From Leeuwenhoekiella parthenopeia (GTDB lineage: Bacteria; Bacteroidota; Bacteroidia; Flavobacteriales; Flavobacteriaceae): a stretch of 64,000 nucleotides of DNA. A program made the translations under genes and the position numbers. The DNA lies in contig NZ_JAJGMW010000006.1 of NCBI RefSeq assembly GCF_020782115.1, positions 1 through 64,000 on the forward strand. The letters are read 5' to 3'. Below, in pieces: positions 53,175 to 59,719 of this stretch (within the stretch, counting starts at the first letter, position 1; the number at the start of each line of letters is the position of its first letter). The notes beneath the pieces are model-generated. The model was not told the DNA's origin. It did no database searches and was given only the letters and a program-made list of their open reading frames with translations.

Positions 53175-53221
53175 TTAAAAATTTTTGAAGCCTTGGAGAA
53201 AATTTAGGGGCCTTATTGCGG

Positions 53222-53299
53222 TTTTGCCTGATAAGGCAAAAATACCTAAGAAAAAGTGTCCTTTCTTTTGGTTCGTTTTCTTTGGACAAGCAAAGAAAA
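53222..53299. repeat. Two hairpins in front of the recombinase
   Basis: TTTTGCCT-gata-AGGCAAAA (53222-53241) and TTTTCTTTG-gacaag-CAAAGAAAA (53276-53299) are perfect inverted repeats. The second ends on the first base of the recombinase ATG. They lie in a short junction with no similarity to either flanking gene, where both the gene to the left and the recombinase have lost their 5' ends. They may be a REP-like element that mediated the junction, or part of a regulatory leader. Confidence 0.65.
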
Positions 53300-53997
53300 T
53301 GAACAGAATAAACTATAGGAACTTGGCCTATTTACAGCGTCTTATTTCGCGTAAAAAATCAAACTCTTACGTAAACCAAAGCATTAATGCGATCAAGTTT
53401 TATTATGAGGTGGTTTTGGGAATGCCCAATCGCTTTTATGAACTGGAACGCCCCAGAAAGGAATACAAACTTCCTGAGGTCGTATCGAAACAGGAAATTC
53501 TTTCCCTAATCGCACACACTAACAATATTAAACATAAGTGTATAATAGCGCTTTTATATGGTTCCGGGTTAAGACGCAGTGAGTTGTTAAATCTAAAAAT
53601 TGAAGATATAGACAGTAAGCGGATGCTCGTTAAAATTAGGCAAGCCAAAGGCAATAAAGACCGATTGAGTATTTTATCTCAAAATGCGTTACTGGATTTA
53701 CGCACGTATTACAAACAATTTAAGCCGAAAGAATATCTTTTTGAAGGTCAAAACGGCGGGCAATACAGCGGTCAGGCAGTAGTAAAGATTATTAAAAATG
53801 CCGCCAAAAAAGCAAAAATCACTACCAAAGTTACCCCTCATACATTAAGGCATAGCTTTGCTACGCACCTGCTGGAAGCCGGTGTAGATTTAAGACAAAT
53901 ACAGGTTTTATTGGGGCATCAATCAACTAAAACTACTGAAATCTACACGCACGTAGCAACAAATACTTTTAAAACAATTAAAAATCCATTAGATTAG
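53299..53997 (+). CDS. Tyrosine recombinase (XerC/D-like), N-terminally shortened
   Basis: 232 aa from the ATG at 53299. The catalytic set is complete: Arg 92 (GSGLRRSELL), Lys near 118 (QAKGNKDR), His 181 and Arg 184 (HTLRHSFATH), His 207 (LLGHQ) and Tyr 216 (EIYTHVA). The stretch SNSYVNQSINAIKFYYE is the end of the SAM-like core-binding domain; about 60-80 residues expected before it are missing. The frame continues to a TTG at 53185, but that prefix is not recombinase-like. The roughly 20-residue extra patch of integron IntI proteins before the HxxR motif is absent. It precedes and shares orientation with the cassettes. Confidence 0.85.
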   Translation: MNRINYRNLAYLQRLISRKKSNSYVNQSINAIKFYYEVVLGMPNRFYELERPRKEYKLPEVVSKQEILSLIAHTNNIKHKCIIALLYGSGLRRSELLNLKIEDIDSKRMLVKIRQAKGNKDRLSILSQNALLDLRTYYKQFKPKEYLFEGQNGGQYSGQAVVKIIKNAAKKAKITTKVTPHTLRHSFATHLLEAGVDLRQIQVLLGHQSTKTTEIYTHVATNTFKTIKNPLD

Positions 53998-54526: not shown

Positions 54527-54664
54527 TGCACACAACAATGTATAACCGCAATTACGGCGGATTCGACTGCGTCCGAATCCACTCGGAATTGCTAACGTCA
54601 GTGCTAAACCGAAAATTAACGCATATTAACCCGTAACTGACGGTTATACAAACCGTTGTATGCC
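54527..54664 (+). other. attC-like site 1 (between cassettes 1 and 2)
   Basis: Layout: R'' TGCACACAAC (54527-54536), spacer AA, L'' TGTATAACCG (54539-54548), a 92-bp variable part, L' CGGTTATACA (54641-54650, exact complement of L''), spacer AACC, then the next unit's R' GTTGTATGCC (54655-54664). R'' is the exact complement of the box in front of cassette 1, as expected if the circular cassette closed there. The variable part has GGATTCG/CGAATCC and CGTCAGT/ACTGACG arms. This matches the architecture of integron attC sites, but with longer boxes than the RYYYAAC/GTTRRRY consensus. Confidence 0.75.
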
Positions 54665-55960: not shown

Positions 55961-56097
55961 GGCATACAACAATGTATATAAAAAATTAGGCGGAACAGTA
56001 CTGAATTTAAGGATTTTAGCTCGTATCAAAATTTATGCTTAACCGAAAGTTTAGTGCTTCGTAATCGCCTACTTTTCATATACTAACCGTTGCCATT
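55961..56097 (+). other. attC-like site 2 (between cassettes 2 and 3)
   Basis: R'' GGCATACAAC (55961-55970) is the exact complement of the box in front of cassette 2. It is followed by AA and the arm TGTATATAAAAAATTAGGCG (55973-55992). The other arm CGCCTACTTTTCATATACTA (56066-56085) pairs with it with a few mismatches, then ACC and R' GTTGCCATT (56089-56097) start cassette 3. The site is about 137 bp. Imperfect pairing of the inner arms is typical of attC. Confidence 0.75.
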
Positions 56098-56107
56098 AAT
56101 TTTGAGA

Positions 56108-56911
56108 ATGAAAAATCTAATAATAATTTGTCTTTTGATTTCAAGTGTTACAGCTTGTAATTCTCAACAGAAAAATAACAAAGAGAAAGACCAAGAAATG
56201 TTCAATATATTCAAAAAGAAAAAACAGAATAAGGAAGAAATACTATCTCACGCAGATTACAACAAACTTTTTGACAATGACTCAATCGAAGGAATGCCGA
56301 TTACAGTAATTGATATCGGAAAACTGAAAGTACCTACTGGAAAAATTGTTGTTTGTGACCCACTTGTAACACCAGATATGCAACCTCTAAATCGAGAAGT
56401 AAAAAGTGGAGAATATCCAATCAAAATTTATGAAGTTAAAACAGAAAATTCTGGAGACAGATATGCAATAGCCCAATTGGAATTTAATAATCTACGAGCT
56501 GAAAAATGGGTATTAGCCGTTCGAGATGGAGAGGATATCAATGAATTGACTGAAGAAGGAGACTTTTTCGGATTTCCTGTTGACGCTGGATTGGGTGGTT
56601 TTTTTGACATTCAAGCTGGAGTGGAATATTTGAAATTTCAAGACGACTTTATGAAGTCAAATCCTAATGGGAATATTTATGACGACTTTTTTGCAATGGA
56701 ATTTAAGAAAAGTGCAAAAGACCAAAATGACCCAAACGACTATGGGAATTGGGTGAATTTTAAACTTCCGAATTCTGACTTAAATATCACAATGTTTCAA
56801 TCAGGTTACGGTGATGGAATGTATCCAGCATATTGGGGAATTGACAAAAATGGAGAAATAACATCATTGGTAATTGACTTTTTTGTTGTCCTTTTACCAG
56901 ATGATGAATAA
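56108..56911 (+). CDS. Cassette 3: DUF4241-like lipoprotein
   Basis: 267 aa from the ATG at 56108, 10 bp after the box; an open TTG at 56090 overlaps the box. A lipoprotein signal ends SVTAC (Cys 16). A Lys-rich stretch (NNKEKDQEMFNIFKKKKQNK) then leads into a DUF4241-type domain: IDIGKLKVPTGKIVVCDPL, SGEYPIKIYEVK and GFPVDAGLGGFFDIQAG. The function is unknown; the domain turns up in immunity-type and cassette contexts, but I do not infer a role. The box and its complement AATGGCAAC (56921-56929) bracket the gene. Confidence 0.85.
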   Translation: MKNLIIICLLISSVTACNSQQKNNKEKDQEMFNIFKKKKQNKEEILSHADYNKLFDNDSIEGMPITVIDIGKLKVPTGKIVVCDPLVTPDMQPLNREVKSGEYPIKIYEVKTENSGDRYAIAQLEFNNLRAEKWVLAVRDGEDINELTEEGDFFGFPVDAGLGGFFDIQAGVEYLKFQDDFMKSNPNGNIYDDFFAMEFKKSAKDQNDPNDYGNWVNFKLPNSDLNITMFQSGYGDGMYPAYWGIDKNGEITSLVIDFFVVLLPDDE

Positions 56912-56920
56912 TAAAAAACT

Positions 56921-56940
56921 AATGGCAACATTGGTAACCG
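56921..56940 (+). other. Half attC-like site after cassette 3
   Basis: R'' AATGGCAAC (56921-56929) complements the cassette 3 box, followed by ATTGGTAACC and then GTTGCACAAG. The arm GGTAACCG looks like an L'' box, as in site 1, but no variable part or matching L' follows. Either the transposase unit is inserted at this point or the rest of the site was lost. The junction AACC-GTTG is the same as in site 1. Confidence 0.65.
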
Positions 56941-58678
56941 TTGCACAAGTCCATAATTTCTAAAAAAATCAATCTATTTAAACTGTTTTTAAGCGGTTTT
57001 CTAGTTTTAGACCGTTGATAAACATTGGAAGTTAATGTGCGTTAGAGTTGATGTAAATGCTTGTTCTACGGTCGTTTTTACTCTAAAATACAAGCCGAGC
57101 ATCCCTGCCCCGCTTTTGGTGCGCTTTTCAATAAACTTCAGGTACTTTTTAATGTTGTAGGCAATGGCAGCAAGCTGCATACACTTGTTGGCCTGCTTTA
57201 ATCCTATGGTATTTACCTTTCTTAACCCCATAAACTGAGTCAAGGTGCCAAAAACAGGTTCTACCGTGCTTTGGCGCTTAGCTTTCATATACCGGCCCTG
57301 TGTGCTTTCTACCCGGGCTATGTTACGCTGGTATTCTGCCCGGTAATAGGTGACGCTAAACTTTTTCTCCTGAGCACTTTTACCCAGACAGCTGCTGCGT
57401 ATGGGGCAATCCATACACACATGTTTGCGGGCTCGGTATTCCTTCTTGCGGGTATCCGTTCTGTAATCGTTGAACTCCTTGGTAAACGGGATTATTTTGC
57501 CCTGTGGGCATAGGTAATGATCTTTATTTTCAACATACTCAAAGCCTTCGGGACCGCCTTTAAAGGTACCGTGAGCAGGTATAAAACTCTGGATTCTCTG
57601 ACGCTCTAAAAATGCATAGTTTTCACCGGAGCTGTAGCCCGTGTCTGCAACACAGTTCTCCCAGACCAGACCCTGCTGCCACAGACGCCGCTTTACACGC
57701 TTAACAATATCGGGAAGTTGCTGGTTATCCTTACCGTCTGCGTGATAAGCTTTAATGTCGGTGATCACATGATGACCCGTATCTACACTTAGCTGGCTCA
57801 GGTAATTGAGTTTTCTAGCCTTGCCCGGTTTCACACTAATACGAGCGTCAGGGTCAGTAGGACTATAGTGGGTTTTATTGCTGGTGTATTTACTGCCTTT
57901 GTTACCAGCGCCGGGTCGCTGGTCACTTCGGCTAGCGCTCAGCACAGGCCTGATCTTTGCTCCAACGCTTGTTGCGGGTAGTTATAGCTTTTAACTCCTG
58001 CTCATTAGCGGTTATGCTGCGCTGGTCGTTATTTGATTTATCCTCTTTGCTTTTGCGAAAAGGCTGCTCTTTATCCATCGACTGATGTGACGAACCCTGC
58101 GCAGGTGAGACTCCAGTTCTTCCTCAGGCACTTTAAGTTCCAGAGTGTCCATCGAAGCGTTGGCCTTTACCGGGGCGCTGTCAATAGCCTGGGTATGACC
58201 GCTCACCATACCTGCTTCTACACAAAGAATGAATACTTTGGTAAAAACCGATTCAAACACCTCTTCCGGGAACAACTGCCGCGTTCGGCTGATGGTAGAA
58301 TGCCAGGGTAATTCTTCATCAATATCATAGCCTATAAAATACAGGATATCAAGTCGCATACTGCAGTGCTCGATAAGCTTGCGGTCGCTGATGATGTTTT
58401 CTAAATAACCCACCAGACAGAGTTTAAAAAACACCACCGGATCAATACTCTTCTGACCACTGCTACCGTAAAAGTCCCGGGTGAGTTGATAGAGAAAATC
58501 AAGGCTCAATGCTTCCTTTAGACGCCGGTAGAAGTTGGTAACCGGTACCCGCTCACTCAACTGAAAACTGTTGAAAAGCTGCTCTTGATATACTTTCTTT
58601 CCTTGCATACCATGAAATTACAACTCAATTGTAAATTACAGGTAAACCGTATGTTAGCTTTTTGCTAACTTGTGCAAC
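56940..58678 (-). mobile_element. IS1182-type transposase unit inside or as a cassette
   Basis: The unit is bounded by inverted repeats GTTGCACAAGT (56940-56950) and ACTTGTGCAAC (58668-58678) and encodes an IS1182-like transposase on the minus strand. The same left end recurs at 59719-59855. The boundary repeats can be read as IS ends or as cassette boxes, because GTT boxes and their complements are what define all neighbouring cassettes. Just inside the right end is a hairpin GTTAGC-ttttt-GCTAAC (58653-58669). The transposase is frameshifted, so it is probably not active. Confidence 0.8.
57007..58608 (-). pseudogene. IS1182-family transposase, frameshifted
   Basis: The N-terminal part (58608 to about 58083) has the usual VVFFKLCLVGYLENIISDRKLIEH start and QAIDSAPVKANASMDTLELK. 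The C-terminal part (57945 to 57007) has GSKYTSNKTHYSPTDPDARI, CPIRSSCLGKSAQEKKF and QSTVEPVFGTLTQFMGLRKV. Near 58080 the frame shifts: the correct reading MDKEQPFRKSKEDKSNNDQ continues one frame over. Near 57925 it is interrupted again with TAG and TGA between. So at least two indels separate the halves and no intact DDE transposase can be made. Both halves still look like family members. Confidence 0.85.
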
Positions 58679-58809
58679 AGGCACAATGGCTATCAGTAAT
58701 TGCTTGTTCTCACCTACCTATGAAAATCCTCGCGGATTTTCAGTTTGGTGTGTACTTGCAAAAGTTAGTACTAACCCACGCAACTACTCATAGCCGAGAC
58801 GTTATGTGC
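58668..58809 (+). other. attC-like site after the transposase unit
   Basis: R'' ACTTGTGCAAC (58668-58678) complements the box at 56940. The spacer AGGCACAAT follows, then L'' GGCTATCAGTAATTGC (58688-58703), a variable part with a perfect hairpin GAAAATCC-tcgc-GGATTTTC (58722-58741) and the palindrome GTTAGTACTAAC, then L' GCAACTACTCATAGCC (58780-58795), which pairs with L'' at 14 of 16 positions. GAGAC and R' GTTATGTGC (58801-58809) open the next cassette. It is a complete site, which supports the transposase sitting within a cassette. Confidence 0.75.
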
Positions 58810-58846
58810 AATTAAAAAACGACACTAAAATTTAAAAGTAACAACA

Positions 58847-59092
58847 ATGACTGAAGTATTTATTACGAACTTTGAAAATCAAAATCAAGCGGACAAAGTT
58901 GCGAACTCTATTCTTAGCAACTATTCAGATATAAAAATCAACACCGACTTGAATGAAACAGAATTACCCTTTCATTGCAGACACACTATTTTGAGAATTG
59001 AAGGAGAAAATTTCAACTCTGACGAAATAAATAGCACCGTAAATAGATTACGAATTAAATGCCAAGTCTTAGAAGATAAAATCTGCTTATAA
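58847..59092 (+). CDS. Cassette 4, gene a: small ferredoxin-fold-like protein
   Basis: 81 aa starting MTEVFITNFENQNQADKVAN. The pattern of short beta strands and two helices (VFITNF ... ADKVANSILSNY ... HTILRIEG ... INSTVNRLRIKCQVLEDKI) resembles a small ferredoxin-like alpha/beta fold without metal Cys pairs. It is 38 bp after the cassette box and overlaps the next gene by one base (TAATG), so the two are translationally coupled. The function is unknown. Confidence 0.7.
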   Translation: MTEVFITNFENQNQADKVANSILSNYSDIKINTDLNETELPFHCRHTILRIEGENFNSDEINSTVNRLRIKCQVLEDKICL

Positions 59093-59697
59093 TGGCTGAG
59101 TTTTGGGAAGAGGCATTTAAAGACAAAAAAGAAATGTGGGGTTCAAAACCTGCAAAATCCACCATCTTGACAAGTGACTTTTTTGTTGAAAAGAATTTAC
59201 AAAACATTCTAATTCCAGGGATCGGATATGGTCGGAATGCTAAAACTTTCATAGATAATGGAATATCAGTAACAGGAATTGAAATTTCACAAACCGCAAT
59301 TGATTTAGCTCACGAACATTTTGACAATAACTTAACAATTCATCACGGGTCGGTAACAGAAATGCCGTTTGACGACAAATTATATGACGGAATATATTGT
59401 TACGGACTAATTTACTTATTGGATAAAGACGAAAGGAAAAAACTAATTCAAGACTGTTTTAACCAGTTGACAGAAAACGGATATATGGTTTTTACAGCTA
59501 TCACAAAAGATGCTAAAACTTACGGACAAGGAACACCGATAAGTAAAAACCGTTTTGAAATGTTTGGCGGTGTTAAAATTTTCTTCTACGACAAAGAAAC
59601 CATAGAGAAGGAATTTGGCGAATTTGGATTATTTGAAACTACGGAGGTGATTGAAAACTATCCTTTTCATTTAATAAAATGTACGAAACGGAAATAA
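59092..59697 (+). CDS. Cassette 4, gene b: class I SAM-dependent methyltransferase
   Basis: 201 aa. SAM-binding motif I is LIPGIGYGRNAKTFIDNG, the acidic residue of motif II is in TGIEIS, then DKLYDGIYCYGLIYLLDKDE and a C-terminal VFTAITKDAKTYGQG with FYDKETIEKEFGEFGL. The layout is of small Methyltransf_11/25-type enzymes acting on small molecules. The start overlaps the upstream small gene by one base. The substrate and the reason for pairing with that gene are unknown. It lies three bases before the complement box GCCCATAAC. Confidence 0.9.
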   Translation: MAEFWEEAFKDKKEMWGSKPAKSTILTSDFFVEKNLQNILIPGIGYGRNAKTFIDNGISVTGIEISQTAIDLAHEHFDNNLTIHHGSVTEMPFDDKLYDGIYCYGLIYLLDKDERKKLIQDCFNQLTENGYMVFTAITKDAKTYGQGTPISKNRFEMFGGVKIFFYDKETIEKEFGEFGLFETTEVIENYPFHLIKCTKRK

Positions 59698-59699
59698 AA

Positions 59700-59719
59700 G
59701 CCCATAACAAAGATAACCG
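59700..59719 (+). other. Half attC-like site after cassette 4
   Basis: R'' GCCCATAAC (59700-59708) complements the cassette 4 box GTTATGTGC in 8 of 9 positions, then AAAGATAACC and GCTGCACAAG. As at 56921, the L''-like GATAACCG is followed directly by the IS left end instead of a full site. Confidence 0.6.

Follow-up and report, generated by a model that had tools for sequence, protein, structure and literature searches.

The window, a 64,000-nucleotide stretch of contig C55 in the 4.42-Mb genome of Leeuwenhoekiella parthenopeia, carries an array of gene cassettes headed by a tyrosine recombinase gene (53185 to 53997, + strand; Pfam PF00589 and NCBIfam matches) and interrupted between its third and fourth cassettes by a transposase unit. 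The recombinase is XerA-like, as is its best solved relative, and scores below the cut-offs of both the NCBIfam XerA model (210.9 bits, cut-off 220) and the integron integrase model (179.7 bits, cut-off 265). Its alignment to IntI4 falls into two stretches separated by 26 residues, where IntI4 has 69, and the extra segment that marks IntI-type integrases is missing; such a recombinase nonetheless stands at the head of a real cassette array, and homologues of it lie near the insertion sequence (IS) described below in several other loci. The array itself is integron-like, with cassettes that end in foldable attC sites whose ends are complementary (GTTGTGTGC/GCACACAAC, GTTGTATGCC/GGCATACAAC and GTTGCCATTA/TAATGGCAAC, and, with one mismatch, GTTATGTGC/GCCCATAAC).

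The attC-like sites of cassette 1 (54529 to 54662, +) and cassette 2 (55963 to 56096, +) are intact and match our covariance model R1 at 92.6 and 77.6 bits, both being in its training set. Cassette 3 (56090 to 56929, +) encodes a DUF4241 protein (PF14025) and ends with the R'' box TAATGGCAAC at 56920 to 56929, which its R' box GTTGCCATTA complements, while cassette 4 (58802 to 59708, +) encodes an 81-aa protein and a methyltransferase and ends with R'' GCCCATAAC. The methyltransferase (59092 to 59697) has a weak, partial-length PADLOC match to mads_2 (E 1.1e-16) and is probably a plain methyltransferase. Elsewhere in the genus, R1 finds 72 attC-like sites in one genome (G001), mostly in two long runs (L232; contig C2, about 623-653 kb and 812-831 kb), which are large arrays for the group.

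The transposase unit is an IS1182-family IS at 56934 to 58684 (- strand), with ends taken from mapped relatives and a transposase that is broken in this copy. From left to right the stretch holds a target-duplication copy, ATTG (56930 to 56933), a terminal repeat GTAACCGTTGCACAAGT (56934 to 56950, +), a weak terminator-like hairpin in array direction that was seen by eye in this copy (56980 to 57009, +), the C-terminal (57007 to 57945, -; PF13751, PF01609, NF033551 199 bits) and N-terminal (58012 to 58608, -; PF05598, NF033551 126.8 bits) pieces of the transposase, a right terminal repeat ACTTGTGCAACAGGCAC (58668 to 58684, +) and a right duplication copy, AATG (58685 to 58688), one base off the left copy. 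Each piece scores below the NF033551 cut-off of 270 bits, which is set for the whole protein. Behind the IS lies a displaced attC-like remainder holding L'', L' and R' (58685 to 58808, +), recognised from homologous IS-less sites and from an R1 match at 58677 to 58808 (87 bits, outside the training set). Assignment to IS1182 rests on a DDE transposase (DDE_Tnp_1, DDE_Tnp_1_6, DUF772 and IS1182 models among the Pfam and NCBIfam matches, with NF033551 on both pieces), on terminal inverted repeats around the transposase, with both ends in 57 of 68 mapped copies, and on a 78% identical relative on an Arenibacter plasmid that is annotated as IS1182 family. The other large copy in this genome, on contig C37, is missing its left end.

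Element ends, target duplication and point of insertion

Transposase relatives from public genomes were collected at 78 loci in about two dozen named genera, of which 68 were mapped and 57 had both ends. The other ten were unmapped partial matches (L065, L072, L076, L079, L081, L082, L087, L088, L090, L091); five mapped copies had no recognised left end (L029, L053, L064, L067, L068), seven had no recognised right end (L015, L036, L039, L058, L061, L067, L086), and the left flank of L022 is cut by a contig end. L016 and G003:C2, L020 and G006:C38, and L017 and G008:C7 denote the same assemblies, and their counts are not additive. The end that faces the upstream cassette is GTAACCGTTGCACAAG and the opposite end is CTTGTGCAACAGGCAC, or GTAACC-GTTGCAC...GTGCAAC-AGGCAC in outline, so that the window copy starts with GTAACC at 56934 and finishes with GGCAC at 58684. 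Ends at GTTGCACAAG were rejected, 4-bp duplications aligning only 6 bp further out.

The 4-mers that flank the element are identical in 29 of 57 copies, compared with 11.7 on average, and never more than 21, in 5000 re-pairings. Among the other pairs, 13 have a single difference and 14 have at least two, and a contig end truncates the last; since 27 of the 57 copies carry differing 4-mers, it follows that many insertion sites mutated or were exchanged after insertion. In the window copy, too, the 4-mers differ, with ATTG on the left and AATG on the right. The duplications are plainest in copies that apparently lie off-site (L020 TGTT/TGTT, L016 TATA/TATA, L092 ATAA/ATAA), which answers a call in the first-pass annotation for clean duplications outside arrays, and a copy on the Arenibacter plasmid, kept outside the counts, reads AAC-AAGG before the IS and AAGG behind it.

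Directly before the 4-mer, AAC stands in 60 of 62 judgeable left flanks, the exceptions being AAT (L030) and ATC (L092). A is the first base of the 4-mer in 55 and G the last in 49 of 57 tabulated copies, where each AAC base is kept in 56-57, and one G033 copy is not behind AAC. The window IS is inserted within the attC-like site of cassette 3, directly after its R'' box, and the duplication covers the short unpaired spacer between R'' and L'' plus the first base of L''. Four of the five left ends in this genome follow AAC-N4, and the fifth, on contig C58, follows GTC-TATG. The shared junction goes beyond chance, and the proposal in the first-pass annotation of an IS that targets the cassette site, to be judged by listing the flanks of other copies, is strongly supported.

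The landmarks on which that annotation was built are all present, namely the GTTGCACAAGT/ACTTGTGCAAC ends, GGTAACCG before the unit, the attC-like site after it and a second left end at 59719. The unit it delimited is real, with edges drawn six bases too far in. Because the element starts at GTAACC (56934), GGTAACCG is not half of cassette 3's site, as had been supposed; the left side holds only R'' TAATGGCAAC and the 4-mer ATTG, and the rest of the interrupted site is to the right of the IS. What was taken for an R'' box complementing the unit's own left box is the terminal inverted repeat of the IS. The copy at 59719 does sit at a like junction, behind R'' CCATAAC and the 4-mer AAAG, and is a left-end remnant that runs from 59713 to about 59855 (+) with an 81% match to the left end. 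The same annotation had named two findings that would speak against it, ends at positions other than those drawn and insertion at random sequence; the ends do lie elsewhere, though by no more than 6 bp outward, and the sequences entered are not random.

Selectivity for attC-like sites

Whether a right flank is the remainder of an attC site was judged by three tests, L''/L' pairing, a homologous IS-less site, and covariance model R1. A gapped L''/L'-GTT match better than shuffles (p<=0.05) was found in 37 of 63 right flanks, a homologous site that lacks the IS and has AAC directly ahead of the 4-mer in 43 of 63 within the public DNA sampled, and an R1 match in 43 of 61. At least one test was positive for 51 of 61 right flanks and, with both flanks of this genome added, for 53 of 63. 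R1 is not fully independent, since its training sites, all of them IS-less, had been picked for their homology to IS flanks (42 found, 34 of the ~118-nt class, 28 of these aligned). These three tests replaced a rigid position-by-position comparison of stems that misses bulged ones and that, over the first eight bases, paired at least six in 22 of 63 flanks (control 11%) and at least seven in 11 of 63 (control 1.5%).

Ten of 61 right flanks gave no attC by any of the three tests (L016, L020, L023, L029, L033, L035, L056, L070, L075, L092). Five of them look truly off-site by eye (L016, L020, L035, L070, L092), all with identical 4-bp flanks and the same ends, while L033 and some others start attC-like and then stop. 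Orientation is close to uniform, with 127 of 130 R1 matches near the 68 mapped copies on the strand opposite the transposase and the other three overlapping such matches.

Within the window, R1 finds the sites of cassettes 1 and 2 and the displaced site, the next matches having E 0.32 and above. Across the genome, at E<=0.01, it finds at least 15 sites covering about 2 kb of 4.42 Mb, or about 0.05%, a lower bound given that 150 of 1388 candidates were scored. The linear consensus YAACANNGNNT, by comparison, occurs 853 times in this genome. Targeting by this consensus only would put about 2% of insertions in the found sites, as against 84% of the copies examined, and the transposase therefore probably reads more than the local sequence. 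We hold it very likely that the unit is an IS1182-family IS from a Bacteroidota clade that has specialised in integron-type attC sites and inserts 3' of the AAC of R''.

How the site is recognised is less settled, and it is conceivable, if somewhat unlikely in our judgement, that the transposase reads only the linear sequence around R'' (YAAC-ANNG) and that attC folding plays no part. A staggered cut in duplex DNA would be expected to leave a clean 4-bp duplication, AAC and the A and G of the 4-mer hardly vary (56-57, 55 and 49 of 57), and the apparently off-site L016 lacks a clear dyad. Against this, attC holds 53 of 63 insertions, with 853 consensus matches on offer against at least 15 sites, and of the five clear off-site targets three read AAC-N4-GTT, one of them (L020) a 7-of-8 dyad. 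Several outgroup copies, moreover, sit in palindromes, and IS1272, of the same family, targets hairpins according to the accessible text of PMC4923244 and PMC5678879.

The 28 aligned IS-less sites are foldable. At their edges CAACA and CGTT show little or no variation, and the inner AAC/GTT pairs, being constant, are uninformative on pairing. Double changes that keep the pair occur at 13 of 19 predicted pairs; of the two outer R''/R' pairs, one is disrupted in 9 and the other in 7 of the 28 sites. When the R'' of cassette 3 is rejoined to its remainder, the minimum-energy DNA structure has a folded L''/L' stem and an unpaired R''/R'. In 11 testable flanks without attC evidence, local dyads were no better than after random re-pairing (mean 3.36 of 8 matches against 3.59).

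Cassette-like features, related elements and possible effects on arrays

The first-pass annotation had also considered that the unit might be a cassette. Such a gene cassette would be moved by the array recombinase, which would cut G^TT before TTGCAC and carry along the transposase gene and the attC that follows it. In favour of this, the unit has its place in the array, its boundary sequences resemble R' and R'' boxes that are complementary to one another, and behind it stands a full attC-like site. Some exchange has also happened, the 4-mers of 14 of 57 copies disagreeing in at least two positions; recombination between IS copies explains this equally. A mobilised unit would, however, sit behind a complete attC, and by eye no such IS end was recognised among 226 distinct places in the DNA sampled where GTTGCACAA is followed by G or C. 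Of these places, 198 have the IS tip (117 the GTAAYC tip, 81 the other tip) and the remaining 28 are mutated tips, outgroup ends, R'' boxes and unrelated places. Among 150 places that read AAC-N4-GTAAYCGTT, 127 lead into an IS end, 22 look like chance by eye, and one is the L028 junction, AAC-AATG-GTAACCGTTGTAATC, which is not followed by an IS; there a cassette-like context gives way to non-cassette genes, and the junction may be a decayed IS end, leaving it as one doubtful scar. The IS extends 6 bp past the would-be boxes and shows no sign of movement by the recombinase; rather than being bounded by attC, it is flanked by 4-bp duplications, with the same ends outside arrays and 4-mers that match far above chance. 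We therefore reject the cassette interpretation as highly improbable. Random insertion of an ordinary IS, with its array position owed to coincidence or survivorship, can practically be dismissed, for although intergenic array DNA may tolerate insertions and some copies lie outside recognisable attC sites, survivorship cannot produce a position on which 60 of 62 copies agree to the base.

The IS1182-family element, as judged from sequence, is a parasite of cassette arrays in marine Bacteroidota and not itself a cassette. Its ends resemble cassette boxes because the family terminal repeat, GTTGCA..., does so, and this repeat is also found in relatives outside attC sites. In distant relatives (Hymenobacter, Rufibacter and others, at about 42-51% identity), ends of the form GTGGCTGTTGCA recur, while no ends were recognised in some. 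Several of these relatives sit in palindromes, such as L226 in ATTTATAC-GATC-GTTTAAAT with GATC on both sides, and in L224 and in L228 the two flanks are reverse complements of each other. Since outgroup ends share it, the GTTGCA core is a family trait; what sets the attC clade apart is GTAACC, the left tip, a match to the AACC-GTTG edge found in some attC sites.

The ends, the duplication, the position, the orientation and the homologous intact sites are established at the level of sequence comparison. The IS lies just 3' of the AAC of R'', between copies of 4 bp that are mostly ANNG, and its GTAACC end faces R'', so that the transposase gene reads against the array. We propose that the DDE transposase puts it there by an ordinary staggered cut of 4 bp. 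Recognition may be helped by the dyad or fold of attC, given that the linear consensus alone is far too common. The upstream cassette would lose its normal attC, its R'' being cut off from the rest, and a terminator in the left end may shield the IS from array transcription. A bolder version holds that this DDE clade evolved to read the folded cassette site, that the L'-R' edge of attC is imitated by its left tip, GTAACC-GTTG, that each insertion cuts the array at a chosen cassette, adds a transcription terminator and leaves a transposase-bearing unit which the array recombinase can shuffle at least now and then, and that the 148-150-bp miniatures spread likewise; taken as a whole, we consider it improbable.

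An IS that preys on attC is a known kind, from which this one differs in its transposase family and host group, in duplicating 4 bp and in keeping one orientation. IS1272, the nearest known case within the IS1182 family, is reported in the accessible parts of PMC4923244 and PMC5678879 to target hairpins, deleting part or all of the hairpin without duplication. It shares with our element the transposase family, the palindromic settings of several relatives and little or no free choice of target, whereas the attC clade keeps its site, duplicates 4 bp and uses one conserved type of site. The IS1111-attC elements, as described in the available text of PMC11187229, likewise target the attC of integron cassettes, as 53 of 63 right flanks show here. 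Their transposase, by contrast, is a DEDD enzyme guided by RNA and subterminal repeats according to the same source, and the present clade has a DDE transposase, terminal repeats, a 4-bp duplication and a Bacteroidota host, with no IS110/IS1111 model among the Pfam and NCBIfam matches. Group IIC-attC introns, too, are mobile elements tied to attC sites in cassette arrays (PMC7923331, accessible text), and unlike the window unit they carry a ribozyme and a reverse transcriptase; no Rfam match was found in the window and no reverse transcriptase among the Pfam matches of the unit. In the searchable literature, which excludes preprints, most subscription papers and ISfinder, we found neither a link between IS1182 and attC as its target nor an attC-specialised IS1182 clade with 148-150-bp miniatures. 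The four papers that name both IS1182 and attC deal with other matters, judging by title and abstract, and attC is absent from the accessible text of PMC10057117 and PMC12382657, two papers that mention IS1182, integrons and gene cassettes.

With this clade, a second and unrelated IS family joins those that parasitise integron cassette sites, here in Bacteroidota, on whose arrays of this sort we found little written. Because insertion is exact to the base, the IS marks cassette sites, and as a DDE system it would allow the reading of a foldable site to be tested; it also suggests a concrete way for arrays to be split, terminator-capped and frozen.

About 40 nt into the left end, read in array direction, a hairpin with T-rich sequence behind it was found in 44 of 68 IS left ends (3.5 in shuffles), in 17 of 33 solo ends (1.3), in 6 of 11 miniature ends (0.1) and in 11 of 19 left ends of undetermined type (0.7), compared with 13, 7, 1 and 6, respectively, in the opposite direction. 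By exact pattern, the 13 genomes of the genus contain 26 left ends of the IS against 7 right ends. Solo left ends close cassettes in this genome (59713-59855) and in the genus (L007 2433; L008 9021), and about half of them keep the terminator-like hairpin. Miniatures of about 148-150 bp with the same ends lie within attC-like sites (L236-L242; L170 4436; L151 424), and in genome G013, where the copies measure 148-150 bp, three of seven have identical 4-bp flanks and five of seven stand behind AAC. At L184 (404-600), a left end is followed about 160 bp on by the cassette-like start GTTGTGCAACAGTTGCG, with no attC between them.
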